Shown here in pieces: positions 7,554 to 37,336 of a DNA stretch of 40,715 nucleotides (position 1 is the first letter of the stretch; each line of letters opens with the position of its first letter). Both the position numbers and the translations under genes were made by a program. Below the pieces are notes generated by a model. It saw only the letters and a list, made by a program, of their open reading frames with translations, was not told where the DNA came from and searched no databases. Origin of the DNA: a virus. The DNA lies in IMG/VR virus record IMGVR_UViG_3300044799_000242, positions 1 through 40,715 of that record. The stretch is one strand, 5' to 3'.

Positions 7554-8617
7554 TCCCTTTTAATAATTTCTACAAAGGACGTAAGGTTTTTGTCACAGGA
7601 CATACCGGGTTTAAAGGCTCCTGGTTATCTATTTTATTGAAATGGCTTGGTGCTGATATATATGGGTATGCATTAAAGCCTCATACAATTCCAAGTTTAT
7701 ACGAATTGGCAAAAATTGATGAATTTATTCATTCTACTATTGGAGATATACGGGATTATGATTTATTACTAAAAACTATCAAAGAAGTACAACCTGAAGT
7801 TATCATTCACATGGCAGCACAACCTCTTGTTATGGAATCTTATAAGAACCCACGTGAAACTTATGAGATTAATGTAATGGGAACTGTGAATATATTTGAG
7901 GCTGCTAAACAGGTAGAAAGTGTAAAAGTAATACTTAATGTTACGACTGATAAATGTTATGAGAATAAGGAATGGCATTGGGGGTATAGAGAGAATGAAC
8001 CTATGGGTGGTTATGATCCTTACTCGAATAGTAAAGGTTGCTCCGAATTAATTACAAGTGCTTTCAGGAGTTCTTTTTTTAATTCTAAAGAAGTGGCTGT
8101 TGCCTCATCTCGTGCCGGGAATGTTATTGGAGGGGGCGACTGGTCTAATGATCGGCTTATACCTGATCTTTTACGTGCAATAATGAAAGGAGAGAAATTA
8201 AAAATACGATGTCCTTATGCTATTCGTCCCTGGCAATACGTGTTAGAACCATTATCAGGATATCTTGTATTATGTGAAAAATTATATTCTGGCGGTACTG
8301 TTTTTGCTGAAGGATGGAATTTTGGACCTGATGACAAAGATGCTAAAAATGTAGAATGGATTACAAATAAAATATGTGAGTTATGGGGAGACAAGATTAG
8401 TTATGAAATAGATATTAATCCTCATCCACATGAAGCAAATTATCTTAAACTGGATTGTTCAAAAACTAAAGCAATACTTGGGTGGTCTCCTAAATGGGAT
8501 ATCGAAACTGCACTTCGTATGATTGTGAATTGGAATAAATCCTTTCTTAATAAAGACGACATGAGGCTGGTTTGTATTAGACAGATTAATGAATATTTTA
8601 ATTATGACAAATCATAA
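7547..8617 (+). CDS. rfbG: CDP-glucose 4,6-dehydratase
   Basis: A 356-residue extended short-chain dehydrogenase. It would convert CDP-glucose to CDP-4-keto-6-deoxyglucose using bound NAD. The Rossmann motif GHTGFKG is at residues 18-24, the catalytic TTDKCY at 133-138 and the active YSNSK at 159-163, all in the expected order. Length fits the family. It overlaps rfbF by 7 bases, and its end overlaps the next gene, so the three enzymes are probably translated together. Confidence 0.93.
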   Translation: MVIPFNNFYKGRKVFVTGHTGFKGSWLSILLKWLGADIYGYALKPHTIPSLYELAKIDEFIHSTIGDIRDYDLLLKTIKEVQPEVIIHMAAQPLVMESYKNPRETYEINVMGTVNIFEAAKQVESVKVILNVTTDKCYENKEWHWGYRENEPMGGYDPYSNSKGCSELITSAFRSSFFNSKEVAVASSRAGNVIGGGDWSNDRLIPDLLRAIMKGEKLKIRCPYAIRPWQYVLEPLSGYLVLCEKLYSGGTVFAEGWNFGPDDKDAKNVEWITNKICELWGDKISYEIDINPHPHEANYLKLDCSKTKAILGWSPKWDIETALRMIVNWNKSFLNKDDMRLVCIRQINEYFNYDKS

Positions 8618-9920
8618 AGCAATCCGGCAGGAGATAATTCAAAAAACAATAGAATATTATCAGGCAAAGTTTATAAAGCAAGATTTTGTACCTGGTAAAT
8701 CAAAGATAAAATATGCCGGGAGGATATTTGATCATCAGGAATTGGTAAATGCAGTTGAAGCCTCTCTTGATTTCTGGCTAACAGAAGGACGATTCTCTGA
8801 ATTATTTACTAAAAAGATAGTAGAGTTTCTTGGAATTAAATATGTACTTCTTACTAATTCAGGATCTTCAGCCAATTTATTAGCAATATCTGCACTTACT
8901 TCAGAGAGACTTGGAGATAGACGGTTAAAACCAGGGGATGAAGTAATTTCTATTTCAGCAGCTTTTCCGGCAACTGTTACACCAATTATTCAATATGGGT
9001 TAGTTCCTGTATTTGTAGATATCAATATTCCAACTTACAATATTAATGTAGAGATGATGCAAAAGGCCATTTCTCCAAAAACACGTTGCATTTTTATTGC
9101 ACACACACTTGGTAATCCATTTGACCTCGATGCTGTGATGCAATTGGCCGATGAATTTCATTTATGGGTGATTGAAGACAATTGCGATGCTTTTGGAAGT
9201 GAATATAAAGGGAAGAAAACAGGTACTTTTGGACACATATCCACTTTATCATTTTACCCGGCTCATCACATTACAACTGGCGAAGGCGGCGCAATCTGTA
9301 CCAATGATCAGCAATTAGCACAAACAGTACGTTCATTCCGGGATTGGGGGCGAGATTGCTATTGCCTAGGTGGTAAGAATAATACTTGTGGTAAACGATT
9401 TACGCAGCAATTTGGGAACCTGCCTTCTGGCTTCGACCATAAATACGTATATTCCGAAATAGGCTATAATTTAAAAATGACAGACATTCAAGCCGCTATT
9501 GGGGCAGCACAAATTGATAAACTTCCTGAGTTTTGTGTTCGCAGAAAAGAAAATTTCAAAGAATGGACTCGTATATTTTCGAAATATCCCGATTATTTTA
9601 TTCTGCCTGAAGCAACTGAAGGTACTAATCCATCATGGTTTGCTTTCATAATAACTTTGAAAGAAGGAACTCCTTTTAGCAGGAATGAGTTAACCAAATA
9701 TTTTGATGACAATTTGATAGAGACACGAAATATATTTGCAGGCAATATTACCAAACAACCGGGATTTATAAATAAACAATGGAGAATTGCCGATCACCTG
9801 AATAACACCGATTATATTATGAATAACACTTTTATTCTTGGTACATATCCCGGATTAACCAAAGAAATATTTAAATACTGTGAAGATATTTTAGATCATT
9901 TTATAAAGAAATTCAATTAA
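8604..9920 (+). CDS. rfbH: CDP-4-keto-6-deoxyglucose 3-dehydrase (E1, PLP and 2Fe-2S)
   Basis: This aminotransferase-fold enzyme removes the C3 hydroxyl of CDP-4-keto-6-deoxyglucose. The usual PLP lysine is replaced by His221 in SFYPAHHITTGEGG, as in known E1 enzymes. The iron-sulfur signature C-x57-C-x-C-x7-C is complete: Cys194, Cys252, Cys254, Cys262. I chose ATG 8604 (MTNHKAIRQE, 438 residues), which matches the family start; an in-frame ATG lies 15 bases upstream. It overlaps rfbG by 14 bases. The partner reductase (RfbI/AscD type) is not in the window. Confidence 0.93.
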   Translation: MTNHKAIRQEIIQKTIEYYQAKFIKQDFVPGKSKIKYAGRIFDHQELVNAVEASLDFWLTEGRFSELFTKKIVEFLGIKYVLLTNSGSSANLLAISALTSERLGDRRLKPGDEVISISAAFPATVTPIIQYGLVPVFVDINIPTYNINVEMMQKAISPKTRCIFIAHTLGNPFDLDAVMQLADEFHLWVIEDNCDAFGSEYKGKKTGTFGHISTLSFYPAHHITTGEGGAICTNDQQLAQTVRSFRDWGRDCYCLGGKNNTCGKRFTQQFGNLPSGFDHKYVYSEIGYNLKMTDIQAAIGAAQIDKLPEFCVRRKENFKEWTRIFSKYPDYFILPEATEGTNPSWFAFIITLKEGTPFSRNELTKYFDDNLIETRNIFAGNITKQPGFINKQWRIADHLNNTDYIMNNTFILGTYPGLTKEIFKYCEDILDHFIKKFN

Positions 9921-9921
9921 T

Positions 9922-10902
9922 ATGGCAGAGATACTTTTTTTAACAGTCGATTCACGAGATACATGTGCGTTTTATCGCTCAGCAGGAGTTGTTAAAGACC
10001 TCCGTAGGAAAACAGATGACAATATCACTTTGGTTCAAATGAATCAAGTAGCCTTAGACTGGTCGTTTATTACTCAGTTTGATTTGATAATGATACAGAG
10101 GGCTTTTTCAAAAGACTCGCTTAATCTTTGTGGTTACATAAAGCAATGCGGAATTTCACTCTGGCTCGACTACGATGATAACCTCTTTGCACTTAACCCA
10201 GAAAACCCGACATACGCCCTTTATAATAATCCGGAAATTCAAGCGAATATAAAGGGAATGTTAAAACTTGCTGATGCGGTAAGTGTCCCGACTGAATATC
10301 TGAGACAGGCATATAGTGAGTTTAATAAGAATATTTTTATTGTCCCTAATGCTTTTCATGATTCATTATTTCAGCGTCCTGAGTTACCAAAACGGACAAA
10401 TAACATAGTCTGGCGTGGCCCGGAGGCTCATATATTTGACCTGATGAGTTATTCCAAAGAGATCAATACGATTACTAAAGAGTTCCCTGAATGGAGGTTT
10501 ATGTTTATGGGATTTTCTCCGTGGTTCCTTTCTGATACAAATAACAAAGGTAACGTTCCATCATTAGATATTGTTGTGTACTATAAAACATTATTCGACA
10601 TGGCTCCGACTTGTTTGCATGTCCCTTTGCATGACAATACTTTTAATAGGTGTAAGAGTAATATAGCCGCAATAGAAGGGAGTTACGCCGGGGCAGTCTG
10701 TATAACTCCGGGCTGGTGGAATATGCCGGGAACAATACCTTATACTGACGGTGCAAGTTATTATGAAGCGATAAGAAGTGTTATAACAGGAGAAGTCGAT
10801 AAGGCAGCTTTAAATAAAATCACCTGGGAATATATCATGGATGTTTTACCACTGAGTAAAGTAAACGTAGAAAGATTACAAATAATTAATTCTTTGCTTT
10901 AG
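9922..10902 (+). CDS. GT-B type glycosyltransferase
   Basis: A 326-residue protein with the look of GT4-like transferases found in phage and cell-surface loci. WLDYDDNLF is at residues 81-89, ADAVSVPTEYLR and IVPNAF follow at the domain junction, and the C-terminal half has SNIAAIEGSYAGAVCI, the region that normally binds the donor nucleotide. Donor and acceptor cannot be read from the sequence. It starts 1 base after rfbH and is followed by a promoter, so it probably ends the first transcription segment of the module. Confidence 0.8.
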   Translation: MAEILFLTVDSRDTCAFYRSAGVVKDLRRKTDDNITLVQMNQVALDWSFITQFDLIMIQRAFSKDSLNLCGYIKQCGISLWLDYDDNLFALNPENPTYALYNNPEIQANIKGMLKLADAVSVPTEYLRQAYSEFNKNIFIVPNAFHDSLFQRPELPKRTNNIVWRGPEAHIFDLMSYSKEINTITKEFPEWRFMFMGFSPWFLSDTNNKGNVPSLDIVVYYKTLFDMAPTCLHVPLHDNTFNRCKSNIAAIEGSYAGAVCITPGWWNMPGTIPYTDGASYYEAIRSVITGEVDKAALNKITWEYIMDVLPLSKVNVERLQIINSLL

Positions 10903-10905
10903 ATA

Positions 10906-10934
10906 TTGTTTATTCGGAATAATATGTAAATTTG
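10906..10934 (+). promoter_or_regulatory. Strong TTG-N18-TAnnTTTG promoter
   Basis: TTG at 10906-10908 is separated by 18 bases from TAAATTTG at 10927-10934, close to the Bacteroidota consensus TTTG-N19/21-TAnnTTTG. The predicted start of transcription is near 10940, exactly where the folded RNA element begins. It lies just after the glycosyltransferase stop and points toward the GT2 gene at 11054. Confidence 0.65.
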
Positions 10935-10939
10935 TAGTG

Positions 10940-11019
10940 CAGCAAACGCATCTTAATGGTACAAACCACAAAAATATTGAGCCTGAGTAAATATAACACC
11001 GTATACCACGGGTTTGCTG
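10940..11019 (+). ncRNA. Candidate structured RNA leader with competing helices
   Basis: An 8-bp closing helix is formed by CAGCAAAC (10940-10947) and GTTTGCTG (11012-11019). Inside it are three small hairpins: TGGT/ACCA (10957-10960 with 10965-10968), ATATT/AATAT (10974-10978 with 10990-10994) and CCGT/ACGG (10999-11002 with 11008-11011). The 3' arm can instead pair with CAAACC (10962-10967) through GGTTTG (11011-11016), so two exclusive folds exist. Transcription is predicted to begin at its first base. It is not a canonical tRNA, since the T-loop signature is absent. A regulatory leader for the downstream glycosyltransferase is an inference. Confidence 0.45.
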
Positions 11020-11053
11020 TTGTATTGAAAGGGCTCTTTAATATCTATTAATT

Positions 11054-11641
11054 ATGAAATTTAGTGTTATAATGGCCTCATTGCTTTCGGACTATCCGGG
11101 AAGTGCAACTGGCAAAGATAAGAAGCTTATCAGGGCCGTGGAATCAGTTTTGAAGCAAACGATGATGAATTTTGAATTAATCATAGTCGCTGATGGATGC
11201 GCTTTAACTGAATTTATAGTCAATCATAACTTTACAGATAAGCGTATTAAACTTATTAAAGTGCAGCGTAAAGAACTCTGGAGCAACGTACCCCGGAACG
11301 CAGGTATTGACGTTGCAAAAGGAAAGTATATCACTTACATTGATAACGATGATAAATGGGGAGAAAATCATTTGCGTATCATTGACGACCAGATGGACAA
11401 TACCGAGAACTGGCTATACTTTAATGATATGCGCTGGAACGGTAAGGAGTTTATTGAACGGCAGATTGATGTTGCTCTTTATGGTCATTGTGGAACGTCA
11501 AATATCTGCCATGCTTCACGGCTAAAACTGAAATGGGAAAAACCCGGTTATGGACACGACTTTCTTTTCATTAAGCAGTTAAGGAAGTTTGAAGGTAAAA
11601 AAATCAGCACGCCGGAATACTTTGTTTGTCATGAAATATAG
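11054..11641 (+). CDS. GT2-family (GT-A) glycosyltransferase
   Basis: A 195-residue transferase with the GT2 layout: the N-terminal beta-strand region MKFSVIMASL, a VLKQTMMNFELIIVADG block at residues 32-48, and the metal/nucleotide motif IDNDDKWG at 96-103 (DxD-type). It is short for the family, so it may be a single-domain enzyme. It is preceded by the promoter and RNA element. Its last codons (YFVCHEI) are repeated 86 bases downstream in a tiny reading frame. Confidence 0.8.
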   Translation: MKFSVIMASLLSDYPGSATGKDKKLIRAVESVLKQTMMNFELIIVADGCALTEFIVNHNFTDKRIKLIKVQRKELWSNVPRNAGIDVAKGKYITYIDNDDKWGENHLRIIDDQMDNTENWLYFNDMRWNGKEFIERQIDVALYGHCGTSNICHASRLKLKWEKPGYGHDFLFIKQLRKFEGKKISTPEYFVCHEI

Positions 11642-11725
11642 TCTATTATGGAAAAAGTTAAGGTAGTTTGGTATTGCGTGGGAGTAAATATAATTGGGCA
11701 GCCGGTTTATGTTTGTCATGAAATA
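11611..11725 (+). repeat. Imperfect direct repeat of the GT2 gene end
   Basis: GCCGG, 8-10 variable bases, then TGTTTGTCATGAAATAT occurs at 11611-11639 and again at 11701-11725. Both copies encode a carboxyl end reading VCHEI. The second copy is the end of a 26-codon frame and abuts the start of a GIY-YIG endonuclease gene. It looks like a relic of a second glycosyltransferase end or of a mobile-element insertion. Confidence 0.6.
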
Positions 11726-11728
11726 TGA
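11648..11728 (+). CDS. 26-aa frame ending like the upstream glycosyltransferase
   Basis: ATG 11648 to TGA 11726-11728 encodes 26 residues ending PVYVCHEI, near-identical to the GT2 gene's EYFVCHEI. It overlaps the following endonuclease start (ATGA). It may be a degenerate C-terminal remnant of a duplicated glycosyltransferase rather than a working gene. Confidence 0.3.
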   Translation: MEKVKVVWYCVGVNIIGQPVYVCHEI

Positions 11729-12114
11729 AAGATATGAATATAGAAACAACTCCATATTATATAAATGTTTCTACGAATGGCACTCCTTTTTATGTTCAAG
11801 GAGATGTTGTTTGTGAGGAGCAAATGATCATGCTAAAAAACCACAAAAAACAGACAGGGCTTTATTATTTATTTGATAAAGGAAGAATTGTTTATATCGG
11901 AGCAAGCGGACGTAATGTATACGAAAGAATCCTTTCTCATATAAAAGATAAAAAATTTGACTCATATTTTATATTCCCATGCACAGATGATAATGGAGTG
12001 GTTAATGAAAAATTATTAAACAGGTGTTTAGATGCGGAAGCAAAATTGATAAGAAAATTTAATCCTGAATATAATCAATTAAGTAATTGCGCATTAAAGA
12101 GGATTTCTAATTAA
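11725..12114 (+). CDS. GIY-YIG nuclease-domain protein
   Basis: A 129-residue protein with the GIY-YIG signature: GLYYL at residues 45-49 and VYIGAS at 56-61, the catalytic Arg68 in NVYERIL, Glu105 in LDAEAKLI and the terminal NPEYNQ. These are the conserved positions of the fold. GIY-YIG proteins in phages often act as homing endonucleases that spread themselves. It carries a 44-residue N-terminal extension with no recognised domain. It lies between two glycosyltransferase genes and next to a second GIY-YIG gene. Confidence 0.85.
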   Translation: MKDMNIETTPYYINVSTNGTPFYVQGDVVCEEQMIMLKNHKKQTGLYYLFDKGRIVYIGASGRNVYERILSHIKDKKFDSYFIFPCTDDNGVVNEKLLNRCLDAEAKLIRKFNPEYNQLSNCALKRISN

Positions 12115-12133
12115 TAATTTGTATATTTATAGT

Positions 12134-12670
12134 ATGAGAATCAGCGGGATATATAAAATACAATCAGTAATAAAGCCAGAACGGATTTATATAGGTTCTG
12201 CTATTTATATAAAAAGTAGATGGGCTATGCACTTATATCAATTAAGAAACAATAAACATGGCTCTCAAAAACTTCAACGGCACTACAATAAATACGGTGA
12301 ATCAGATTTACAATTCTCAATTTTGTCAGGTTGTGAAAAAGAAAGATTAATTGAGCAAGAACAATATTTTATTGATGCTTATAAGCCTTATTTTAATAAT
12401 AGAATAATAGCAGCGAGTAATAATTTAGGATTACGTAATCGGTGGCATCATTCAGAAGAAACGAAAAGGAAATTCTCAAATATTCTTAAGGGAAATAAAC
12501 GTACTTTAGGATTTAAGCATTCCATCGAGACAAGAAGAAAAATAAGTGAAGCATTAAGATTAAGAGTACGAAAACCTATGACTGATGAGACAAAACATAA
12601 ATTAAGTTTAGCAAACAAAGGAAATAAAACTGGTTGGGATATAAACATACTAAAGAGGCATTACAAATAA
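12134..12670 (+). CDS. GIY-YIG homing endonuclease with NUMOD3 repeats, C-terminally frameshifted
   Basis: From ATG 12134 the 178-residue product has GIYKI (residues 5 on) and IYIGS (18-22), Arg29 and His33 in SRWAMH, acidic residues near 74-76 and an FNNR motif. A row of NUMOD3 DNA-binding repeats follows (HHSEETKRKFS, GFKHSIETRRKIS). The repeats run into an early stop at 12670, while the same repeat series continues in another frame to 12933. The nuclease domain is intact, so activity is possible with fewer DNA-binding repeats. A TTG 15 bases upstream is in frame, and ATG is preferred. Confidence 0.8.
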   Translation: MRISGIYKIQSVIKPERIYIGSAIYIKSRWAMHLYQLRNNKHGSQKLQRHYNKYGESDLQFSILSGCEKERLIEQEQYFIDAYKPYFNNRIIAASNNLGLRNRWHHSEETKRKFSNILKGNKRTLGFKHSIETRRKISEALRLRVRKPMTDETKHKLSLANKGNKTGWDINILKRHYK

Positions 12671-12933
12671 TGAGAGAAGCTGGGCTTGGTAAAAAACTCT
12701 CTTTGGAACATAAAAATAAATTAATTGCGGCTAATACAGGAAGGGTTGCTTCTTTAGAAACACGTAGAAAAATAACAGTGGCATTAAAGGGTAAAAAAAG
12801 ATCAATTGAAAGTCGTATTAATATTAGTAACGGACATAAAGGCAATATCCCAACAATTGAAACACGAATACGCCTTAGTGAATCAGGCAAAAAGGCATGG
12901 GTACAAAGAAAATTAAATAAAATAGTAGCATGA
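12637..12933 (+). pseudogene. Detached NUMOD3 C-terminus in a shifted frame
   Basis: Starting at about 12637, the frame one base back encodes GYKHTKEALQ and three to four more NUMOD3-like repeats (SLETRRKITVALKGK, SIESRINISN, TIETRIRLSE), finishing at TGA 12931-12933. It continues the repeat row of the upstream gene. Restoring the frame needs one extra base or two fewer between 12632 and 12636. It ends overlapping the next gene's ATG at 12930, as expected for the original end of the endonuclease gene. A sequencing error is the alternative. Confidence 0.75.
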
Positions 12934-13628
12934 AAGCTCTTATTATAAATTTTAATAGAATTTCACTTCCTGTTAAACTTGCTGATTTTTGTGCAAACCA
13001 TAATATCGATCCGATATTTGTCGATAATAATTCTGATTACCCGCCATTACTTGAATACTACAAAACAACTCCTTATGCGGTTGTAAGGATGAAAGAGAAT
13101 TATGGTTATAAAGTAGTTTGGGAGCAGGACATTTTAAATCGATTAAATATTGCAGACAATTATATTGTCACCGATCCTGATTTGGACTTAACAGGCATCC
13201 CTGATGACTTTCTAAGCGTTTTGGAAGCGGGGCTGATAAAGTACCCTCAATATGATAAATGCGGCTTTAGCCTTGAGATAAACGACCTGCCGCCGACTGA
13301 TTTCTGCCCTGCAAAGTATGAAAAACAGTTTTGGCAATATCCTTTAGATAAAATGTATTTTAATGCTGCAATAGATACGACATTTGCACTATATAAAGTG
13401 CCGTTTCATTCGTATAATGCGATAAGAACAAACCGTCCATATACAGCGAAACACATGCCGTGGTATTATTTTGATTTTGAAGATATGCCCGAAGATGAGC
13501 AGTATTATTTTCGCACCTGCATAGAATCACATAGTATGGGAGGGATATTCACTAATAAATGTAAGGTCTGCAGTAAGGAGTTTAAGGGAACTGTTAAAAT
13601 TGATATTTGTCCAAATTGTCATATATGA
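12930..13628 (+). CDS. GT-A-like glycosyltransferase with C-terminal zinc ribbon
   Basis: A 232-residue protein. The body looks like a GT-A transferase: a beta-strand start, FVDNNSDYPPL at residues 30-40 and YIVTDPDLDL at 78-87, where the Asp pairs would hold metal and nucleotide. The last 22 residues form a zinc ribbon with Cys211, Cys214, Cys227 and Cys230. Such a ribbon on a transferase is unusual. It overlaps the endonuclease tail upstream and the next gene downstream (ATGA). Donor and acceptor are unknown. Confidence 0.7.
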   Translation: MKALIINFNRISLPVKLADFCANHNIDPIFVDNNSDYPPLLEYYKTTPYAVVRMKENYGYKVVWEQDILNRLNIADNYIVTDPDLDLTGIPDDFLSVLEAGLIKYPQYDKCGFSLEINDLPPTDFCPAKYEKQFWQYPLDKMYFNAAIDTTFALYKVPFHSYNAIRTNRPYTAKHMPWYYFDFEDMPEDEQYYFRTCIESHSMGGIFTNKCKVCSKEFKGTVKIDICPNCHI

Positions 13629-14389
13629 TTACAATTTTCATAATATATCAAAACCGCTCAGAATCTTTAAAATGGACTCTAAGGTCATTGCTTAAATACG
13701 ATCCTAAAGATTTTAATGTGCTTATCATTGATGATAACAGTAGAGAAGATATTATACTTCCCGGACTACCTTTCAAAGTTCGGGTGATTAAATTCACTAC
13801 TGAACCATGGACAGATATTTATACGTGTGTTCTTAATATGGGATTTTTTTATGCTTTAGATGGTGATCCTGATATTATAATAATGCAGCACGCGGAATGT
13901 TATCATCAGGGAGACATTTTAAATTATGCTAAAAGAGTTACGGACGATTCTTATATATCCTTTGGCTGTTATGCATTAGGAAAGGACGACACCCCTGAAT
14001 CGTTTGAGATAATTGATAGGCCATGTACTCAAGATGGTCAGAGATCATGGTACAACCATCCTATTATCCGTCCGGTAGGATTCAATTTCTGTTCTGCTAT
14101 CACTGCAAAGAATTTGGTTAAACTGAATGGTTTTGATGAACGATTTAAAGACGGCTGTGCCTATGAAGATGATTATTTCCTTCACCAAGTCAAGATATTA
14201 GGATTAAAGGTCGAGATAACTGCTGATCCTATTGTATTCCATCAGTATCATTTAGTATCATTAAGTGTATCTTTGGAGGCACGAAAGCGGAGATCAGAGG
14301 AGGCATGGGTAAGAAACCAGACTTTATTTAAAACATTATCACAAAGTAAAGAATATAGAGCTAAACATTTATTAACACCTAACTTATGA
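13625..14389 (+). CDS. GT2-type glycosyltransferase
   Basis: Starting at the ATGA overlap 13625 (254 residues; a longer TTG start is less likely), the protein has a GT-A core: ITIFIIYQNR, VLIIDDNSRED near residues 32-42, then IIIMQHAECYH (85-95) in the place of the usual DxD, and NGFDERFKDGCAYEDDYF, which contains the ED catalytic motif. This pattern matches galactosyltransferase-like members of GT2. It is co-translated with the following PLP-fold enzyme (ATGA at 14386-14389). Confidence 0.75.
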   Translation: MITIFIIYQNRSESLKWTLRSLLKYDPKDFNVLIIDDNSREDIILPGLPFKVRVIKFTTEPWTDIYTCVLNMGFFYALDGDPDIIIMQHAECYHQGDILNYAKRVTDDSYISFGCYALGKDDTPESFEIIDRPCTQDGQRSWYNHPIIRPVGFNFCSAITAKNLVKLNGFDERFKDGCAYEDDYFLHQVKILGLKVEITADPIVFHQYHLVSLSVSLEARKRRSEEAWVRNQTLFKTLSQSKEYRAKHLLTPNL

Positions 14390-15531
14390 AAATTAACCTT
14401 ACAAGTGATACAATAGACAGGGCGGATATTAACGCATTAATTGAATGGCTAAAGCAAGACCCTATTCCACAGTTGACAAAAGGGAATCTTACGAAAGAAC
14501 TTGAATCTAAATGGGCAAGGAAAACTGGAACTGAATATTCTGTCTTTATTAATTCAGGTTCATCAGCTATTCTCTTACTACTTGCAGCATATAAAGAGCA
14601 ATTAGGGTATAATCCTAAAATTGTGGTTCCTGCTTTGAGCTGGGTAACAGATATTAGTTCTCCTATGTTATTAAGTTATGATATTCGACTTTGTGATTGT
14701 AATCTTAATGACCTGGGGTGTGACTTAATAGAACTCGAAAGTATCTTTAAGGAATTTAAACCTGATTTATTCCTTTCCGTATCACCGCTCGGATTAATCC
14801 CGGACATGGACAGAATAATAAATCTATGTAAAGAGTATAATGTTACTTTCATTGAAGATAATTGTGAGAGCATGGGGTCATGTATTGGAACTGAAGGGAT
14901 GTTAGGTTCATTTGGTCATTCGTCTGTCTTTTCAATGTATTATGGACATCACCTGAGTACAATAGAGGGAGGATTTATAAATACCAGCGATAAAGAATTA
15001 TATAATTTACTTCTTTCAATGCGGAGTCACGGATGGGATAGGGACTGGGATCCTATAGATCAGATAAAAGCAAGAAAAGTATGGAATATTGGTGATTTTG
15101 AAGCTCTTTATACATTTTATTATCCTGGTCTTAATGTACGATCAACAGATTTACAGGCATTTATCGGGTTGAGGCAATTAGATAAACTTAACACGTTTGT
15201 TGATAAGAGAAACTATAACTTTCGGTATTATTTGAAAAATATCAAAGACAATATACTGGATTTAAAGGAAAGAGGTTGTGTTTCAAACTTTGCTTATCCT
15301 GTTGTCAGTCTTAAAAAGGAAAGAATTGTTAAGGACTTACAGGAAAACGATGTTGCTGTCCGCCCTCTTATTGCCGGGTCAATCGGTAAGCAACCGTTCT
15401 GGATTAAAAAACATGGTAATTATAAGTATCTCAATGCGGATTTAATTCATAACTTTGGATTCTACTTACCTAATCATCAGGATTTAACTGAGGAAGAAAT
15501 GAATTTTATTATAGAAATTGTAAACAGATGA
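14386..15531 (+). CDS. DegT-fold sugar 3-dehydratase-like enzyme (His in place of Lys)
   Basis: A 381-residue member of the DegT/DnrJ/EryC1 fold. The PLP lysine position is occupied by His188 in FSMYYGHHLSTIEGG, as in GDP-4-keto-6-deoxymannose 3-dehydratase (ColD), and the PLP-aspartate block is IEDNCESMGS at about 156-165. The Fe-S cysteine cluster of RfbH is absent (no C-x-C after GWDRDWD), so this is not a second E1. The His argues for dehydration/deoxygenation rather than transamination. Substrate is unknown, and no GDP-mannose 4,6-dehydratase is visible. It overlaps both neighbours by ATGA. Confidence 0.75.
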   Translation: MKINLTSDTIDRADINALIEWLKQDPIPQLTKGNLTKELESKWARKTGTEYSVFINSGSSAILLLLAAYKEQLGYNPKIVVPALSWVTDISSPMLLSYDIRLCDCNLNDLGCDLIELESIFKEFKPDLFLSVSPLGLIPDMDRIINLCKEYNVTFIEDNCESMGSCIGTEGMLGSFGHSSVFSMYYGHHLSTIEGGFINTSDKELYNLLLSMRSHGWDRDWDPIDQIKARKVWNIGDFEALYTFYYPGLNVRSTDLQAFIGLRQLDKLNTFVDKRNYNFRYYLKNIKDNILDLKERGCVSNFAYPVVSLKKERIVKDLQENDVAVRPLIAGSIGKQPFWIKKHGNYKYLNADLIHNFGFYLPNHQDLTEEEMNFIIEIVNR

Positions 15532-16289
15532 TTTCAGCAAGACTTTGCGGAGGGTTAGGAGGCCGGTTGTTTCAAATAGCAGCTGCTTTCGCTTTAGCAC
15601 TCGATAATAACGATGAGTGCGCCTTTAATCTTAATATGGGGTCTGTATGTTTAGTCAAACCAGAGACATATAGAAATAATGTTTTCAGAAAACTCAAAGA
15701 TTTACCGCCGGAATGGGTTCAGGAAGCGTACTATCAGGAACGAAGGTATAATTATGATCCTATTCCTTACCATAAAAACTTAATGATAGGGGGATATTTC
15801 GGAAGTGAAAAATACTTTAATAAATATCGGAAGGAAATTATTGAGCTATTTAAAGATCAAAAAACAATTAGAATTATAGAGTTAAGTTTTAACTTCAAAA
15901 ACAGCGTTTCGCTTCATGTGCGCAGGGGTGACTATCTTATCAATGCTAGCCATGTTTGTGATGAAAGATATTATAAAAAAGCTTTATTCCACTTGGATTG
16001 TCAGGTTCAAATAGATCATGTTTATATTATTTCAGATGACATTCCTTGGTGCAAAGAAACTTTCAAAGATAAAAGAATTATATTTATTGAGGGAGTGCCG
16101 GATTACATTGATTTCTATATTCAGACTCTTTGCACTCACAATATAATAAGTAATTCTACATTCTCCCGATGGGGTGCATATCTGAATGAGAACCCTGATA
16201 AAATTGTTTGCGCTCCTGCTGTTTGGTTCGGTGGAAGTATAGCAAATGAGATAACAGATGTGTTTTTAAATGATTGGAATTTTATATAA
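15528..16289 (+). CDS. GT11-family glycosyltransferase (alpha-1,2-fucosyltransferase-like)
   Basis: A 253-residue transferase with hallmark GT11 motifs: CGGLGGRLFQIA at residues 7-18 (GDP-binding start), HVRRGDY at 130-136, and NSTFSRWGAYLNENPDK at 209-225, followed by APAVWFG. The family transfers fucose or related 6-deoxyhexoses from GDP-sugars. Placement right after a His-type dehydratase could mean a 3,6-dideoxy donor such as colitose, but this is inference. It overlaps the upstream gene by ATGA. Confidence 0.85.
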   Translation: MISARLCGGLGGRLFQIAAAFALALDNNDECAFNLNMGSVCLVKPETYRNNVFRKLKDLPPEWVQEAYYQERRYNYDPIPYHKNLMIGGYFGSEKYFNKYRKEIIELFKDQKTIRIIELSFNFKNSVSLHVRRGDYLINASHVCDERYYKKALFHLDCQVQIDHVYIISDDIPWCKETFKDKRIIFIEGVPDYIDFYIQTLCTHNIISNSTFSRWGAYLNENPDKIVCAPAVWFGGSIANEITDVFLNDWNFI

Positions 16290-16304
16290 CTAAAAATTGA
16301 AATC

Positions 16305-17129
16305 ATGAAAGTTAAATTTCACTCAGTTTACCCGATTAATTTAGACATTGACACTAATAAGCCAGTTGACGTTTATATTGATCAATTTACAATGGATCCT
16401 ATTCCACCCGATTCGCTTCGTATTATTATCTTACAAGAACCTTGGAGAGAACCTATGGTTCCGTTGGTGCAGAAGTATAAAGACCGTTACACGCATCTAT
16501 TGACCTATCAGGAAGAAGTTCTGGACTCGAATCCAAAAGCAAGGTTATTCCATTTCCCGAATACATGGATTAAAGATTACAAGTTTCCAAAGAAAGAGTT
16601 TAGTGTTTCAACAGTTGTCGGTGGTAAAAACTTTCTGGAAGGTCACGCATTAAGGCATGAGCTTTGGAGAAATCAGGATAAAATTACCGTACCGAAGAAT
16701 TTCTACCTGAGCGGTAATGCAAAACATTCTCATTCATTCGTGCCGTGGAATGAAGTTAATTATTTGGGCCGCCGTGTTTTAGGAGCCTCTAAAGACCCAC
16801 TATTTACTTCCATGTTTCATATCTGTATTGAGAATACTTCAATAGCAAATTTCTTTACTGAAAAACTCATTGATTGTTTTCAAACAAAGACAGTACCTAT
16901 TTATTACGGATGTACGAATATAAGGGACTATTTCAATATAGACGGGATAATCGTTGTTAATAATGTATATGATATAATAAGTTCCAGTTGCCGGTTATCG
17001 AAAAGCCTATATGAAAGATTACTTCCGGTTTTGGAAGAAAATTTCGAACGGTCAAATAAATGGTGCGATAACATAGAACAATTAAAAAATGGAATAATTC
17101 AGATACTTAAAGAGGAGAATTATGCCTGA
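16305..17129 (+). CDS. GT10-family glycosyltransferase (alpha-1,3-fucosyltransferase-like)
   Basis: A 274-residue protein with the GT10 motif FHICIENTSIANFFTEKL at residues 171-188, followed by KTVPIYYGCTNIRDYF. The family pattern is F-x-x-x-E-N-(x)-TEK and VPV-x-YG. The N-terminal half has LQEPWREP and a HFPNTWI block. It would normally use GDP-fucose; no GDP-fucose pathway is visible in the window. Its end overlaps the MuF gene by 8 bases, coupling the glycan module to a head gene. Confidence 0.85.
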   Translation: MKVKFHSVYPINLDIDTNKPVDVYIDQFTMDPIPPDSLRIIILQEPWREPMVPLVQKYKDRYTHLLTYQEEVLDSNPKARLFHFPNTWIKDYKFPKKEFSVSTVVGGKNFLEGHALRHELWRNQDKITVPKNFYLSGNAKHSHSFVPWNEVNYLGRRVLGASKDPLFTSMFHICIENTSIANFFTEKLIDCFQTKTVPIYYGCTNIRDYFNIDGIIVVNNVYDIISSSCRLSKSLYERLLPVLEENFERSNKWCDNIEQLKNGIIQILKEENYA

Positions 17130-18165
17130 TACCAGTTTAGAATATCGCAATAAGTTTTTAAAACGTCAACTTCAGTATGACAGAAAGTTCCGTTTGATAT
17201 TTAATAAGGTTGCTGATGATTTTGCCCGATTATCAGGTGATCCTAATATTAAATTTAGTCGTGCATTCCGATATAACGGTGCAATAAATAAAAAGATTGA
17301 CATTATAATTGAGGCATTTCATAAAGACGTCCTTAATTTAACCGAATTGGAAATCGAAAAAAGTTGGGGACTATCAAATGAAAAAAACGACTTAATCGTA
17401 AAAGATTATTTAAAGGCTATCACAACCATTAAGACAGCGCAAAAGGCCGCATATTTCATGCCTAATATTCCTGCACTCAAAGCGTTTATTTCCGGCAAGC
17501 ATGGCACGGAGACTTTATCAGATTCAATCTGGCAGGTTGCAAAACAGGCAAGGGGTGAAATGAAAATCCATTTGGGGATCGGAATTTCTCAGGGAGATTC
17601 TGCCTCTGTAATTTCCCGAAGGATCCGTCAATACCTCAAAAACCCGGATGCACTTTTTCGAAGGGTCCGTGATAATAATGGCAAACTAGTTGCAAGTAAA
17701 GCAATGTTAGAGAACCATCCGGGAACTGGAACGTATAATAGTGCTTATAAAAACGCTTTACGTGTGGCCAGAACAAATGCGAACCAATCTTTTCAATTAG
17801 CTGATTCAATAAGGTGGAGGCAGCTAGATATGGTAATCGGGATTGAAATTAAGTTAAGTTCCCAACATCCAGATTATAATTATGTTGAAATATGTGAGGC
17901 ACTTGCAGGAATTTATCCGAAAACTTATATATTCATAGGCAATCACCCGCAATGCTTGTGTATCGCAGTTCCTATACTAATGCCAAATTCTGATTTTAAT
18001 GCGTATTTAAAAGGGAATGAACCACTAAGATCGAAACAAATAACGGATTATCCGCCGAATTTTAAAGAGTTCTGGAAAGCCAATTATGACAAATATTCAA
18101 ATTATAAACAAATGCCGTTTATTATGGAAGATAATTTGGAGGCTATTAAAAAAATTCTGAAATGA
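17122..18165 (+). CDS. MuF-like head morphogenesis protein
   Basis: A 347-residue protein with the MuF-family pattern: a helical N-terminal part, a central DALFRRVRD segment, RVARTNANQSFQLADSIRW and the C-terminal signature GNHPQCLC at about 273-280 (HPxCxC). MuF proteins sit near the portal and help head assembly. The usual gene order is portal, MuF, scaffold, capsid. Here the first two are separated by more than 10 kb of sugar genes. An AGGAG stretch at 17113-17117, four bases from the ATG, is one of the few clear Shine-Dalgarno-like sites in the window. Confidence 0.85.
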   Translation: MPDTSLEYRNKFLKRQLQYDRKFRLIFNKVADDFARLSGDPNIKFSRAFRYNGAINKKIDIIIEAFHKDVLNLTELEIEKSWGLSNEKNDLIVKDYLKAITTIKTAQKAAYFMPNIPALKAFISGKHGTETLSDSIWQVAKQARGEMKIHLGIGISQGDSASVISRRIRQYLKNPDALFRRVRDNNGKLVASKAMLENHPGTGTYNSAYKNALRVARTNANQSFQLADSIRWRQLDMVIGIEIKLSSQHPDYNYVEICEALAGIYPKTYIFIGNHPQCLCIAVPILMPNSDFNAYLKGNEPLRSKQITDYPPNFKEFWKANYDKYSNYKQMPFIMEDNLEAIKKILK

Positions 18166-18429: not shown

Positions 18430-20211
18430 ATGAGAATGAGGGTTGCTGATTATGTAGCAAAATTTATTTATGAACAATTAAAAGTTCATGATGTATTTAT
18501 GGTTACAGGTGGAGGGGCAATGTTTCTTAATGATGGGATCGCAATGAATGGTAAAATAAATGCCATTTGTAACCATCATGAGCAAGCATCATCAATGGGT
18601 GCTGTTGGTTATGCTAAATATACGAATGGCTTTGCAGTGGTAATGCAAACAACTGGATGCGGAGGCACGAATTGCATTACAGGTTTATTGGATGCATGGC
18701 AGGATAGTGTGAAGGTCTTTTTTATTTCCGGGAATGACAATAAAAACAGAACTGTATATAATTCAACTATTAAATTAAGACAACTTGGAGTACAGGAAGC
18801 AGATATTATTTCAATAGTTTCATCTATAACAAAATATGCAGTTATGGTTAATAATGCTGAAGATATTGCTTATCATTTGGAAGCGGCAAAATATCATGCA
18901 GAATCCGGGAGACCTGGCCCAGTATGGGTAGATATTCCTCTGGATATACAAGGAGTATTTATTGAAAGTGACAGTCTTAAACATTTCCGGGAAGGGAACA
19001 ATATAAAGCAAAAAGCTACATTTGAGGAATTGGAGCAATTTAAAAATGACCTTGCTCAAAGCAAGCGACCTGTAATTATTGCGGGTAATGGGATAAGGTT
19101 AGGAAATGCAGTCAGAGAGTTTCAAAAATTCATCAATAAATTCAAAATACCCGTTGTAGTAACATATCTTGGTGTTGATCTACTTCCTTCGGCGCACCCA
19201 CAATTTATTGGAAGGATTGGCATTAAAGGAGACAGAGCAGGTAATTTTGCAATGCAGAACTCTGATTTACTTATAAGTTTTGGTAGTAGATTCAGTGTAG
19301 GATCAGTTGGTTATGATCCTAAATTATTTGCACGTGAAGCGAAGATAGTTGCCGTAGATATTGATGATAATGAACATAAAAAAAATACTGTAAAAATAGA
19401 TTATGTTATAAATGTTGATATAAAAGAATTTCTATTACAGTTTGATTATGATATTCCAATAAATAGCCAGTGGGGTGAGACCTGTCATAACTGGAAAACA
19501 AAATGGCCGACAATATTACCGGAACATAAAGACGATAAAAACGGAATTAACTTATATCATTTTATGGGTATCTTAAACAGGAATCTTAAAAATGATTCTG
19601 TTGTTGTCTCCGATGCCGGATCTGCTTATTATGTCACATCTCAATCCCTTATGATAAAAGAGAATCAAAGATATATCACTTCGGGTGCTCAGGCCGAAAT
19701 GGGATTTACCATACCTGCTTCCATTGGTATTTGTGTGGCTCGAAATAATATGGAGGTTATCGGAATAACAGGCGATGGATCATTTCAGATGAATATCCAG
19801 GAACTTCAGACTATTGTTCATCATAAATATCCCATTAAACTTTTTATTTGGAATAATAATGGCTATTTGTCTATTCGTACAACACAGAAAAGATTCTTTA
19901 ATGGGCGTTTAGGTACTGACAATAGCAGTGGTTTATCTTTTCCAAGTATAGAAAAAATTGCTGATGCTTATGGAATTAAATTTTACAGAATTACAACCGC
20001 AGAAGAGTTGGAATCGAAAATGTGTAAAATCTTATTAGAGAAAGAAGCAGTAATATGTGAAGTTATGTGTCAACCTGATCAGGTCATCGCACCGGTTGTT
20101 TCTTCAATAAAAGATAAGGAAGGGAAAATGATTTCTAAGCCACTAGAGGATATGTTTCCTTTCTTAGACAGGGATGAATTTAATGATAATATGATTATAA
20201 AAACTATATAG
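18430..20211 (+). CDS. Thiamine-diphosphate enzyme, acetolactate-synthase-like (YerE-type)
   Basis: A 593-residue enzyme with the three-domain acetolactate-synthase layout. The catalytic Glu51 is in NHHEQASSMGA, the start has MVTGGGAMFLNDGIA, and the ThDP/metal motif is GDGSFQMN (448-455) with WNNNGY at 474-479. Branched-sugar enzymes such as YerE attach a two-carbon unit from pyruvate to CDP-4-keto-3,6-dideoxyglucose, the very product of RfbF-RfbG-RfbH upstream. A housekeeping acetolactate synthase is possible but unlikely, because the small subunit and other branched-chain amino-acid genes are absent. The start could also be the second ATG, two codons in. Confidence 0.8.
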   Translation: MRMRVADYVAKFIYEQLKVHDVFMVTGGGAMFLNDGIAMNGKINAICNHHEQASSMGAVGYAKYTNGFAVVMQTTGCGGTNCITGLLDAWQDSVKVFFISGNDNKNRTVYNSTIKLRQLGVQEADIISIVSSITKYAVMVNNAEDIAYHLEAAKYHAESGRPGPVWVDIPLDIQGVFIESDSLKHFREGNNIKQKATFEELEQFKNDLAQSKRPVIIAGNGIRLGNAVREFQKFINKFKIPVVVTYLGVDLLPSAHPQFIGRIGIKGDRAGNFAMQNSDLLISFGSRFSVGSVGYDPKLFAREAKIVAVDIDDNEHKKNTVKIDYVINVDIKEFLLQFDYDIPINSQWGETCHNWKTKWPTILPEHKDDKNGINLYHFMGILNRNLKNDSVVVSDAGSAYYVTSQSLMIKENQRYITSGAQAEMGFTIPASIGICVARNNMEVIGITGDGSFQMNIQELQTIVHHKYPIKLFIWNNNGYLSIRTTQKRFFNGRLGTDNSSGLSFPSIEKIADAYGIKFYRITTAEELESKMCKILLEKEAVICEVMCQPDQVIAPVVSSIKDKEGKMISKPLEDMFPFLDRDEFNDNMIIKTI

Positions 20212-20213
20212 TT

Positions 20214-21146
20214 ATGACAAAGAAAATTTCTTTAATAGATTTGGTTAATAAAAAAGCCAATGGAGAACTAGTAACATGGATCACGGCCTATGACTTACCT
20301 CTTTCATGGGCTGCGGAAAATGCAGGTATTGATATGATACTTGTCGGTGATTCTGGCGGCATGGTACAACTTGGTTATCAAACAACCAACCCTGTCACTA
20401 TGGATGAGATGATTGTTATGGCACAATCTGTTCGCAGGGGTGCGCCCAATACTTTTATTATTGGAGATATGCCACAAGGATCTTATGAGATTAGTGATAA
20501 AGATGCTATTTATAATGCACTCAGGTTTGTGAAGGAAGCTGGGTGTGATGCCATTAAACTTGAAGGGGGCAAAAGGATAACACCAAGGGTTAAGGCAATA
20601 TCTGATGCAGGTATATTAGTTATAGGACATCTCGGATTAACGCCACAAAGCACTGCATCATTCGGAGGATATAGAGTACAAGGGAAAACCATCGAGAGTT
20701 TTATAAAAACATTTGAGGATGCAATCGCCTTGCAGGAATCAGGGGCATTTTCGATACTTCTTGAAGCGATGCCGTCAGAATCAGCAGGACAGATAACAAA
20801 ACAGTTAAAAGTTCCTATTTATGGCATTGGTGCAGGACAGTATGTTAATGGACAGTTAATTATTATGCATGACCTACTTGGATTCTATAAACCATTCAGG
20901 CCGTGGTTCGCCAAATGCTATATACCACAGGTGATAAAAAAATATGAGGAATATATTTATTCTGTGAAGGATTTAAGAAAGCTGGGGAGAGAACAGCGTG
21001 AAGATGGTATTCTGATTCTTGCACAGATGGCTATTCAAGAATATATCAAAGAAGTGAAGGACAAGACTTATCCACAGGAGGAATATAGTTATCCGCTTAA
21101 AGAAGAAGATCTTAATATTTTGAAAAAGTCTAAATATTGGAAATGA
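20214..21146 (+). CDS. panB: 3-methyl-2-oxobutanoate hydroxymethyltransferase-like (PanB)
   Basis: This 310-residue protein carries the PanB signatures: ITAYDLPLSWAAENAGIDM, LVGDSGGM with Asp46, IGDMPQGSY with Asp85, IKLEGG with Glu117, IGHLGLTPQS, GGYRVQGKT, and LLEAMPSESA with Glu184. These match the E. coli Mg-binding aspartates (45, 84) and catalytic glutamate (181). PanB normally hydroxymethylates 2-oxoisovalerate with methylene-tetrahydrofolate for pantothenate. No other pantothenate gene is present. In this cluster it may act on a keto-sugar branch, which is a hypothesis. It starts 3 bases after the ThDP gene and overlaps the next gene (ATGA). Confidence 0.85.
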   Translation: MTKKISLIDLVNKKANGELVTWITAYDLPLSWAAENAGIDMILVGDSGGMVQLGYQTTNPVTMDEMIVMAQSVRRGAPNTFIIGDMPQGSYEISDKDAIYNALRFVKEAGCDAIKLEGGKRITPRVKAISDAGILVIGHLGLTPQSTASFGGYRVQGKTIESFIKTFEDAIALQESGAFSILLEAMPSESAGQITKQLKVPIYGIGAGQYVNGQLIIMHDLLGFYKPFRPWFAKCYIPQVIKKYEEYIYSVKDLRKLGREQREDGILILAQMAIQEYIKEVKDKTYPQEEYSYPLKEEDLNILKKSKYWK

Positions 21147-22195
21147 TTAATAAGCGGAACAGTATTGTAGAGCAAGACCTTGAATTTATTATTAATCATC
21201 CATTAAATTGGGATGTATTAGAGGGAAAGACTGTACTAATTACAGGAGCAAACGGCTTTCTTCCCGCATACATGGTTGAAACTTTATTATTTTTAAACGA
21301 ATGCAGGTTTTCAAGCCCAATAAAGATAATTGGGCTTGTCAGAAATATAGACAAAACTAAGCAACGGTTTAAGTTTTATGCTAAACGAAAAGATTTAGAA
21401 TTTATTCAGGCAGACATTAATGAACCTTTTAAATGCAAATGTCCAATAAATTTTATTATTCACGCAGCAAGTCAGGCGAGTCCTAAGTATTTTGGTATTG
21501 ATCCCGTTGGTACTTTATTACCGAATACCGTAGGAACGAATAAATTACTACAACTCGCCATAAGAAACCCGGTTGAGATCTTTTTATATTTTAGTAGTGG
21601 TGAGGTCTATGGAGATACCGATCAAGTACCAACGTCCGAGAATGGTTATGGTTATCTCGATACTACTAATGTAAGATCATGCTATGGAGAAAGCAAACGA
21701 ATGGGTGAAACAATGTGTGTCTCATATCATCGCCAATTTAATGTTCCTGCTAAAATTGTCCGTCCTTTTCATACCTATGGGCCAAGTATGCAGTTAGACG
21801 ATGGGAGGGTATATGCTGACTTTATATCTGACATAGTGAATGATAGAGATATAATCATGAAAGGCAATGGAAACGCCATGCGTGCCTTCTGTTATATTGC
21901 CGATGCGATTATTGGGTTCTTTACTGTCTTACTAAAAGGAGAAAATGGTGAAGCATATAATGTAGGGAACCCGGATGGTGAATTAAGTATTAAGGAATTG
22001 GCTCATACTTTAATAAGTTTATTTCCGGAGAAAAAATTAAAAGTAGTTGAATTTCATAAGCCACCTGATAATAATTACCTTCAGAGTAATAACAGTAGAA
22101 TGTGTCCTGATATTTCTAAAATTAAAACTCTTGGATGGACACCGCATTATAATGTTCAGGAAGGATTCAAAAGAACAATCGAAAGCTATGAATAA
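21143..22195 (+). CDS. NAD-dependent epimerase/dehydratase (extended SDR)
   Basis: From ATG 21143 (350 residues; overlapping panB's stop by ATGA), the protein has the Rossmann motif TGANGFLPAY at residues 34-43, HAASQASP at 107-114, the catalytic Ser pair at 151-152 and Tyr181-x3-Lys185 in SCYGESKRMGE, so it is an active-site-complete extended short-chain dehydrogenase. GxxGxxG is altered to GANGFLP, as in UDP-glucuronate decarboxylase-like enzymes. Likely role: ketoreduction or epimerisation of the branched CDP-sugar, by position. Substrate is not certain. Confidence 0.8.
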   Translation: MINKRNSIVEQDLEFIINHPLNWDVLEGKTVLITGANGFLPAYMVETLLFLNECRFSSPIKIIGLVRNIDKTKQRFKFYAKRKDLEFIQADINEPFKCKCPINFIIHAASQASPKYFGIDPVGTLLPNTVGTNKLLQLAIRNPVEIFLYFSSGEVYGDTDQVPTSENGYGYLDTTNVRSCYGESKRMGETMCVSYHRQFNVPAKIVRPFHTYGPSMQLDDGRVYADFISDIVNDRDIIMKGNGNAMRAFCYIADAIIGFFTVLLKGENGEAYNVGNPDGELSIKELAHTLISLFPEKKLKVVEFHKPPDNNYLQSNNSRMCPDISKIKTLGWTPHYNVQEGFKRTIESYE

Positions 22196-23102
22196 TTTAA
22201 GACAACTTTATAAGGACGGTGCAATAAGTAAGCAGAAGTTTATAAAACAAATGCATGAACACCATTCTATTCTTTTTGAGTACCGGGATTTATTAAAGAA
22301 TAATATAATTAAGAAAATAGAGATTTCTGAAAATTTAGTAATTATGACCTTTCATGATATTAAAATGATTATTGACGAATATGATGAAAGAACAGCACCT
22401 ATTGAAGCACTGAATTTCTCCGGGTATGAAAAAGAAGAAACAGACTTTATTTTAACAATTATTGGAGAAAGTTTACATCCTGACTTTACAGTTTTTGATA
22501 TAGGTGCGAATGTCGGATGGTACTCTTTAAATATTTCCAAGAAATTCCCCGGAATTAAGATTCATGCTTTTGAACCTATTCCTAAGACATTTAGATATTT
22601 GAATGACAATATTAAATTAAATGGGTTAAAGAATATAACAACCAATACTTTTGGTCTTTCAAATTCAGATAAAAATGTTTTATTTTATTATTATAAAGAA
22701 GGTTCTGGAAATTCTTCACTTGTCAATCTATCAAACAGGGGCGAGGAGATGTCTTCAAAAGTATATGAACTTGATAATTACGTTAAAAACAATAATTTGA
22801 GGGTTGACTTTATAAAGTGCGATGTTGAGGGTGCTGAACTATTTGTATTTGAAGGCGCTTTAAAAACATTAAAAGATCAAAAGCCAATTGTTTTTACTGA
22901 AATGTTAAGGAAATGGTCATCCAGGTTTAATTATCATCCGAATGTTATTATTTCCTTGTTTAGAAATATAGGTTACAATTGTTATACGCTTAGAGATGGG
23001 AAACTTATTCCATTCAGTTTTATGAAGGAAGATACTGTTGAGACTAATTTTTTCTTTTTACATAAAGAATATCATGCTGAAAAGATTCTACGATTCAATT
23101 AA
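22188..23102 (+). CDS. FkbM-family methyltransferase
   Basis: I chose ATG 22188 (304 residues) because it overlaps the epimerase end by 8 bases and precedes the folded domain; a further-upstream in-frame ATG would read deep into the epimerase. The SAM motif is FDIGANVGWYS at residues 103-113, then HAFEPIP (126-132) and the family block FIKCDVEGAE. FkbM enzymes methylate hydroxyls of sugars or polyketides, here probably a sugar. It closes the glycan module. Confidence 0.85.
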   Translation: MNNLRQLYKDGAISKQKFIKQMHEHHSILFEYRDLLKNNIIKKIEISENLVIMTFHDIKMIIDEYDERTAPIEALNFSGYEKEETDFILTIIGESLHPDFTVFDIGANVGWYSLNISKKFPGIKIHAFEPIPKTFRYLNDNIKLNGLKNITTNTFGLSNSDKNVLFYYYKEGSGNSSLVNLSNRGEEMSSKVYELDNYVKNNNLRVDFIKCDVEGAELFVFEGALKTLKDQKPIVFTEMLRKWSSRFNYHPNVIISLFRNIGYNCYTLRDGKLIPFSFMKEDTVETNFFFLHKEYHAEKILRFN

Positions 23103-37149: not shown

Positions 37150-37182
37150 TTAATAGTGCACAACATAACAAATGATTAACCG

Positions 37183-37254
37183 ATGAGTGAAGAACAGACA
37201 AAATTTCTGGAAGAACTTGATAATAGAAATAAGGGAATAAAGAACACACTATAA
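37183..37254 (+). CDS. 23-aa frame, MSEEQ-type
   Basis: ATG 37183 to TAA 37252-37254 encodes MSEEQTKFLEELDNRNK and a short tail. A 14-base segment (ATGAGTGAAGAACA) recurs at 37291 in the next tiny frame. It is too short to judge coding. It lies in the 348-base stretch between adhesin and fibre, which has no long gene. Confidence 0.25.
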   Translation: MSEEQTKFLEELDNRNKGIKNTL

Positions 37255-37257
37255 GAT

Positions 37258-37335: not shown

Positions 37336-37336
37336 T

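Follow-up and report, generated by a model that had tools for sequence, protein, structure and literature searches.

A phage gene cassette pairing a PanB homologue with a YerE-like carboligase, predicted to build a branched CDP-linked dideoxyhexose

The window analysed here is a 40,715-base virus record (IMGVR_UViG_3300044799_000242), in which four genes at 18430-23102 run in the same direction and encode a thiamine diphosphate (ThDP) enzyme, a PanB homologue, an extended short-chain dehydrogenase/reductase (SDR) and an FkbM methyltransferase. Because consecutive genes are spaced by 2 bp or overlap, the set looks translationally coupled, as in an operon. The ThDP protein (18430..20211, plus strand, 593 aa), a predicted YerE-like carboligase, contains the N, M and C domains of TPP enzymes, all three over the cut-off. 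The following gene (20214..21146, plus strand) encodes a PanB-family hydroxymethyltransferase of 310 aa, which matches PF02548 with 301.8 bits over residues 5-251 and TIGR00222 with 262.8 bits (cut-off 207.6). The SDR (21137..22195, plus strand, 352 aa, with a likelier ATG start at 21143; PF01370, 140 bits) is a candidate branch-ketone reductase. The FkbM-family protein (PF05050; TIGR01444, 104 bits), a candidate for O-methylation, comprises 304 aa from an internal ATG at 22188 (22188..23102, plus strand), the mechanical open reading frame (ORF) beginning at 22047. A first-pass annotation had described these four genes, together with RfbF, RfbG and RfbH elsewhere in the window, and both ORF positions and profile matches bear this out.

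The whole-domain profile match, the Mg and catalytic residues and the fold all place the second protein in the PanB family (PF02548). Its Asp46, Asp85 and Glu184, already singled out in the first-pass annotation as conserved, align with Asp45, Asp84 and Glu181 of E. coli PanB. Ser47, Lys115 and Glu117, which correspond to E. coli Ser46, Lys112 and Glu114, are also conserved, as is His139, and the complete set is invariant in 89/89 viral ThDP-linked PanBs. Ser47 and Lys115 are presumably the contacts to the carboxylate of the free 2-oxoacid. The AlphaFold model (pLDDT 89.4) superimposes on 1m3u with a Z of 37.0 and a root-mean-square deviation of 1.7 over 261 residues. The window protein thus shares its fold (Z 37) and its Mg and catalytic residues with the known PanB structures (1m3u, 1o66 and 1oy0), but it differs from them in belonging to a separate clade, in fixed changes at pocket positions, in an extra C-terminal segment and in the lack of a pantothenate gene context.

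Together with 17 bacterial and viral sequences, the window PanB forms one clade with a support of 100/100. With shorter viral PanBs included, the division persists between 83 ThDP-linked or PanB2-type sequences and 79 ordinary ones (FastTree support 0.91). Every one of the 89 distinct ThDP-linked cores from viruses has Leu182, Leu215 and Ile217, whereas valine is the usual residue at each of these positions in ordinary PanBs; two outliers labelled as ordinary (L019 and L041), which are the sisters of the clade in the tree, also carry these residues. Leu215 aligns with E. coli Ile212, a position whose alanine variant, combined with I202A, gave a carboligase variant used on panels of 2-oxoacids (PMC7611260). 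The substitutions at 182, 215 and 217 may therefore alter the substrate pocket.

The genomic surroundings of the clade also differ from those of a vitamin gene. The window ORFs that were scanned include no pantothenate gene, and none of the 16 related virus records has panC, in agreement with the earlier remark that no other such gene lies nearby; judged by panC/panE context, the window PanB does not behave as a pantothenate-pathway panB. Among the 14 bacterial carriers of the clade, 13 have a separate ordinary PanB and nine have panC. The second, ordinary copy indicates that the divergent clade is a paralogue and not the vitamin enzyme. The first-pass view that the homologue is not a pantothenate gene is thus upheld by its clade, by the ordinary PanB elsewhere in these carriers and by its ThDP neighbourhood, described below.

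Some members of the clade occur in other settings. In L007, L008 and L015, bacterial genes without a ThDP neighbour adjoin MetX, Cys/Met pyridoxal phosphate (PLP) enzymes, homoserine dehydrogenase and an aminotransferase, and these methionine/homoserine neighbours suggest another role for the clade in 4-hydroxy-2-oxoacid chemistry. In Spirochaetota (L010-L012), the gene is followed by one for a protein of 362-421 aa, the L012 copy of which has no Pfam or NCBIfam match. In a sample of 296 Bacteroidota genomes the sole carrier was the one already known, so the clade is rare in that phylum. Among the viral protein models of BFVD no PanB-like match was found, the best having an E-value of 1e-4 at a TM of 0.4. 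A phosphonate pathway, in which phosphoenolpyruvate (PEP) mutase and phosphonopyruvate decarboxylase likewise combine a TIM barrel with a ThDP enzyme, is disfavoured: PanB-specific models score 263-302 bits, structural alignment gives Z values of 30-37 with PanB structures but roughly 18 with the group of PEP mutase and isocitrate lyase, and the window ThDP protein is YerE-like.

Among PDB structures, the ThDP enzyme matches JanthE (8rph) best, at 420 bits, followed by 5ahk, which we take to be PpYerE, at 256 bits, while acetolactate synthases reach at most 208 bits. Its domains and motifs, including HHEQ with the catalytic glutamate and GDGSFQ with the GDG motif, are those of a YerE-like carboligase, nearer to YerE-like enzymes than to acetolactate synthase, as the YerE-type label of the first-pass annotation implied. 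For the PanB-linked ThDP proteins of L005 and L099 JanthE also clearly comes first, and for that of L014 5ahk and JanthE are level, ahead of the rest. JanthE of Janthinobacterium sp. HH01, the closest solved relative (structure in PMC12188165), has a broad donor range for 2-oxoacids. It differs from the window enzyme in having CDG in place of GDG, and its docking hot-spots P293 and Y268 align, as read by eye, with Gly and Lys. In four loci (L004:8207-9959, L102:8240-9999, L105:8240-9990 and L110:8240-9999) the ThDP enzyme appears as two overlapping ORFs of about 335 and 250 aa with the same break, a split more suggestive of conservation than of a sequencing error.

The first-pass annotation had proposed a search for PanB homologues co-occurring with rfbH and yerE-like genes, and the outcome is strongly positive. 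A scan led by a viral PanB found the ThDP gene alongside in 80/80 loci (26/26 clusters at 90% identity), and one of viral contigs led by an ordinary PanB found it in 78/80, the two exceptions being ordinary PanBs, one of them followed by a panC-like gene; each scan took the best 80 loci to short peptide patterns, and the counts are samples in which related contigs are not independent. Pooled, 89/91 distinct viral PanB cores have a YerE-like ThDP gene within 4 kb, a figure inflated by the pool having been gathered partly via the ThDP gene, the fair test being the two PanB-led scans. In the first set assembled, a ThDP gene lay within 4 kb of PanB at 16/16 viral loci, at 4/14 bacterial loci of the clade and at 0/66 ordinary PanB loci, this last control consisting of chromosomal loci with flanks of varying length. 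Taken from the ThDP side, PanB lies no more than 3 kb away at 65 of the 91 viral loci with a YerE-like enzyme; the window ThDP sequence used singly in a scan returned no loci, and an alignment of ten ThDP proteins returned 79. The association of the two genes is beyond chance, and the contrast between 89/91 and 0/66 supports a branched-sugar pathway and weighs against a vitamin role. In one viral contig (L002:9935-15241) a radical SAM/SPASM protein and a further ORF lie between PanB and ThDP, and a second radical SAM protein follows, with no RfbH nearby.

The sugar acceptor would come from three further genes on the plus strand, all of which exceed their NCBIfam equivalog cut-offs: RfbF (6795..7553; TIGR02623, 377.4 bits, cut-off 300), a glucose-1-phosphate cytidylyltransferase giving CDP-glucose; RfbG (7547..8617; TIGR02622, 492.5 bits, cut-off 278), the CDP-glucose 4,6-dehydratase; and RfbH (8589..9920; NF011936, 669 bits, cut-off 423), the CDP-4-keto-6-deoxyglucose 3-dehydrase that leads to the 4-keto-3,6-dideoxy acceptor. 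In RfbH a His replaces the PLP lysine (PAHHITTGEGG), and its Cys motif, CYCLGGKNNTC, is what the 2Fe-2S type should have. Enzymes of this type normally depend on a reductase partner; no such partner turned up in the scanned window ORFs. A second DegT-family protein (14386..15531, plus strand; PF01041, 155 bits) also lacks the lysine, with His-His in its place (YYGHHLSTIEGG), and resembles ColD-type 3-dehydrases, for which it is a candidate; similar proteins occur in L004, L099, L101 and L104. Across the viral loci, a lysine-less RfbH/ColD-type 3-dehydrase lies near the pair in 61/65 cases with both ThDP and PanB, and in 84/91 of all YerE-like ThDP loci. The bacterial locus L006 (Bacteroidales) combines RfbF, RfbH, RfbG, SDR, PanB and ThDP. 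Both the equivalog matches and the frequency of the 3-dehydrase support acceptor supply as the first-pass annotation saw it, namely RfbFGH furnishing CDP-4-keto-3,6-dideoxyglucose.

From these data we consider it probable that the phage cassette directs the synthesis of a CDP-linked 3,6-dideoxyhexose whose C-4 bears a functionalised branch, with PanB acting on the donor before the ThDP step. RfbF, RfbG and RfbH would yield CDP-4-keto-3,6-dideoxyglucose, and the PanB-clade enzyme would transfer a hydroxymethyl group from methylene-tetrahydrofolate onto a free 2-oxoacid of small size; the likeliest substrates are pyruvate, from which 4-hydroxy-2-oxobutanoate would arise, and 2-oxobutanoate. The YerE-like enzyme would then decarboxylate the PanB product and couple what is left, a hydroxyacyl unit, to the sugar at its C-4 ketone, after which the SDR would reduce the branch ketone and FkbM may O-methylate; the latter two steps, also part of the earlier proposal, are plausible. 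Neighbouring glycosyltransferases would transfer the branched sugar to a phage or host glycan. The sequences themselves show the gene identities, the clade, the conservation of the catalytic residues and the co-occurrence; the reactions given here to the PanB, ThDP, SDR and FkbM proteins are what we infer from them, as are the choice of 2-oxoacid, the stereochemistry, the part played by FkbM and the final location of the glycan or sugar.

Several observations argue for a donor role of PanB. The substrate that PanB hydroxymethylates in its known pathway is a free 2-oxoacid. With formaldehyde, the wild-type E. coli enzyme has been run on a set of free 2-oxoacids, pyruvate among them (PMC10127515), and further 2-oxoacids are converted in a cascade (PMC7611260). 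The product expected from pyruvate, 4-hydroxy-2-oxobutanoate, is a known donor of ErwE, which transfers 4-hydroxy-2-oxobutanoate, -pentanoate and -hexanoate, and not pyruvate, onto CDP-4-keto-3,6-dideoxyglucose (PMC12247030). Some PanB-less ThDP loci have other makers of 2-oxoacids beside the ThDP gene, which also supports a donor role: an HpcH/HpaI aldolase in three loci (31 and 26 bits, cut-off 25), NeuB in two (131 and 244 bits) and a class I aminotransferase in one (184 bits). In addition, a small SDR (c2) is present in 60 loci with PanB and in 17 without it, and its retention regardless of PanB fits a reductase of the ThDP-made ketone. In the window itself the SDR has a homologue in L005 (340 bits), where it adjoins the PanB-ThDP pair.

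Other genes were also seen beside the ThDP gene. A DJ-1/PfpI, cupin and HAD-like trio adjoins it in the PanB-less phage loci L145, L146, L179-L182, L185-L188, L190, L192, L194 and L195. An Fe-S protein with LdpA-like domains, some 385 aa long, lies next to the ThDP gene in L157, L158 and L161, together with the HpcH/HpaI aldolase in L157 and L158.

A number of points weigh against this pathway. Only 6 loci carry the aldolase, NeuB or the aminotransferase, and the commonest replacements of PanB, in 15 loci, are members of the DJ-1/cupin/HAD-like trio (one locus also with HpcH/HpaI), which have no obvious role in forming 2-oxoacids. RfbF and RfbG are missing from most other phage loci, whose acceptor may thus be a different nucleoside diphosphate sugar, and the window SDR is unlike the c2 SDR of most other phages. 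Of the clade's 14 bacterial members, ten lack a neighbouring ThDP gene, indicating that the enzyme has other uses as well. Finally, the pocket argument is based on an alignment and a short literature statement, and not on a ligand-bound structure.

Four other schemes were weighed. PanB could make ketopantoate as usual and the ThDP enzyme could take it as donor, giving a hydroxypivaloyl-type branch. This scheme would leave the specificity of PanB unchanged, and JanthE accepts bulky donors (PMC12188165), but the change from V to L/I at positions 215 and 217, which align with the pocket, would be expected to shrink the pocket and not to keep it, and a quaternary donor would be bulky for a ThDP carboligase; we regard it as unlikely.

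About as unlikely is the order of steps in the first-pass annotation, which has the ThDP enzyme begin by attaching a two-carbon acetyl unit, taken from pyruvate, to the CDP-keto-sugar; PanB would then add a hydroxymethyl group to the sugar-bound product beside the new ketone. The adjacency of the two genes, the occurrence of such ThDP enzymes without PanB, which would allow PanB to be a late tailoring enzyme, and the methyl ketone, in principle open to hydroxymethylation, are compatible with it. However, the whole set of residues that binds the free 2-oxoacid in known PanB is kept, while the branch made by a ThDP carboligase has lost its carboxylate, which makes PanB before the ThDP step the simpler order; the other 2-oxoacid makers in PanB-less loci and the bacterial clade members devoid of any sugar or ThDP context argue in the same direction. 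The branched-sugar module of that annotation is well supported and retained, and its placement of PanB on the sugar given up; it had also overlooked the phage context.

That PanB and ThDP make a small acyloin or hydroxy-acyl compound decorating the glycan separately, with no C-branch on a keto-sugar, would suit L002, with its radical SAM proteins and no RfbH, but is very unlikely given the keto-sugar-forming 3-dehydrase alongside 61/65 pairs and the closest ThDP relatives, which form sugar branches or couple to ketones. Barely credible is a vitamin B5 auxiliary metabolic gene raising host pantothenate and coenzyme A, its position in a sugar cassette being incidental: the window PanB does pass the panB equivalog cut-off, and viral 'pantoate transferase' has been interpreted that way (PMC8940887), but the separate clade with its fixed core substitutions, the ThDP gene beside nearly every viral PanB, the absence of panC from 16 virus records and the second PanB of bacterial carriers all oppose it, and the sole true panB-panC pair found in viral contigs (L344) lacks a ThDP gene and falls outside this set.

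The donor-first pathway has relatives among known systems. The yersiniose A pathway of Yersinia pseudotuberculosis shares RfbFGH-type acceptor supply, a YerE-like ThDP enzyme (YerE itself) and a reductase that acts after YerE. It differs in that YerE uses pyruvate as donor and makes a two-carbon branch, and no PanB partner is mentioned for it in a review of YerE-like enzymes, which build C-branched sugars on CDP-4-keto-3,6-dideoxyglucose (PMC12247030). The erwiniose pathway with ErwE of Pectobacterium atrosepticum is similar in its CDP-4-keto-3,6-dideoxyglucose acceptor, its YerE-like enzyme and its hydroxylated 2-oxoacid donor (PMC12247030); here, in contrast, a PanB-family enzyme is proposed to make the donor from methylene-tetrahydrofolate, and the cassette is phage-borne. 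A literature search on PanB with O-antigen or YerE found no earlier description.

More broadly, we give about an even chance to the view that a branch of the PanB family, widely carried by phages, left vitamin metabolism and supplies one-carbon-extended 2-oxoacid donors to YerE-like enzymes for undescribed, phage-encoded branched sugars. If so, the PanB family would have a new role, a recurrent phage gene pair would be explained and many viral 'pantoate transferase' vitamin genes would be mis-read sugar genes. In a survey of oxygen-minimum-zone viruses, viral 'pantoate transferase' was the most abundant vitamin-metabolism auxiliary gene and was read as boosting pantothenate and CoA (PMC8940887). 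Such reports deserve a second look and a published reading might need correction, the survey genes being only candidate members of the present clade. The predicted branched sugars would possibly decorate virions or alter host surfaces. As PanB and ThDP enzymes are soluble families with tractable assays, the idea is directly testable.

The window comes from a tailed phage: it encodes TerS, TerL, a portal and a head-morphogenesis protein (PHROG matches), and the sugar cassette sits inside the head genes. A head-morphogenesis or minor head protein (17122..18165, plus strand; PHROG 35295, 7625 and 1657) divides the sugar genes into two blocks. In L200, a close terminase relative, candidate glycan genes likewise follow the portal, while several more distant relatives have the order terminase, portal, minor head and capsid with no glycan block between; from this comparison the sugar genes look like insertions. 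Only 4/16 related virus records, a set that includes many fragments, match the terminase profile PF03237. Bacterial contamination of the contig as the source of PanB is disfavoured, the cassette lying between phage head genes and the pair recurring in dozens of viral contigs.

Upstream of the head protein, a glycan-assembly block (9922..17129, plus strand; Pfam and PHROGs) contains candidate glycosyltransferases at 11054 (GT2), 13607 (GT2), 15528 (GT11) and 16305 (weak GT10), and it also takes in ORFs at 9922 and 12930 without an assigned family. A GIY-YIG homing endonuclease with a NUMOD3 motif lies within the sugar block at 12119-12670. The region 35077-39288 encodes two probable tail proteins, of which one bears a laminin-G-like lectin domain (35077-37149) and the other an S74 chaperone domain (37498-39288).

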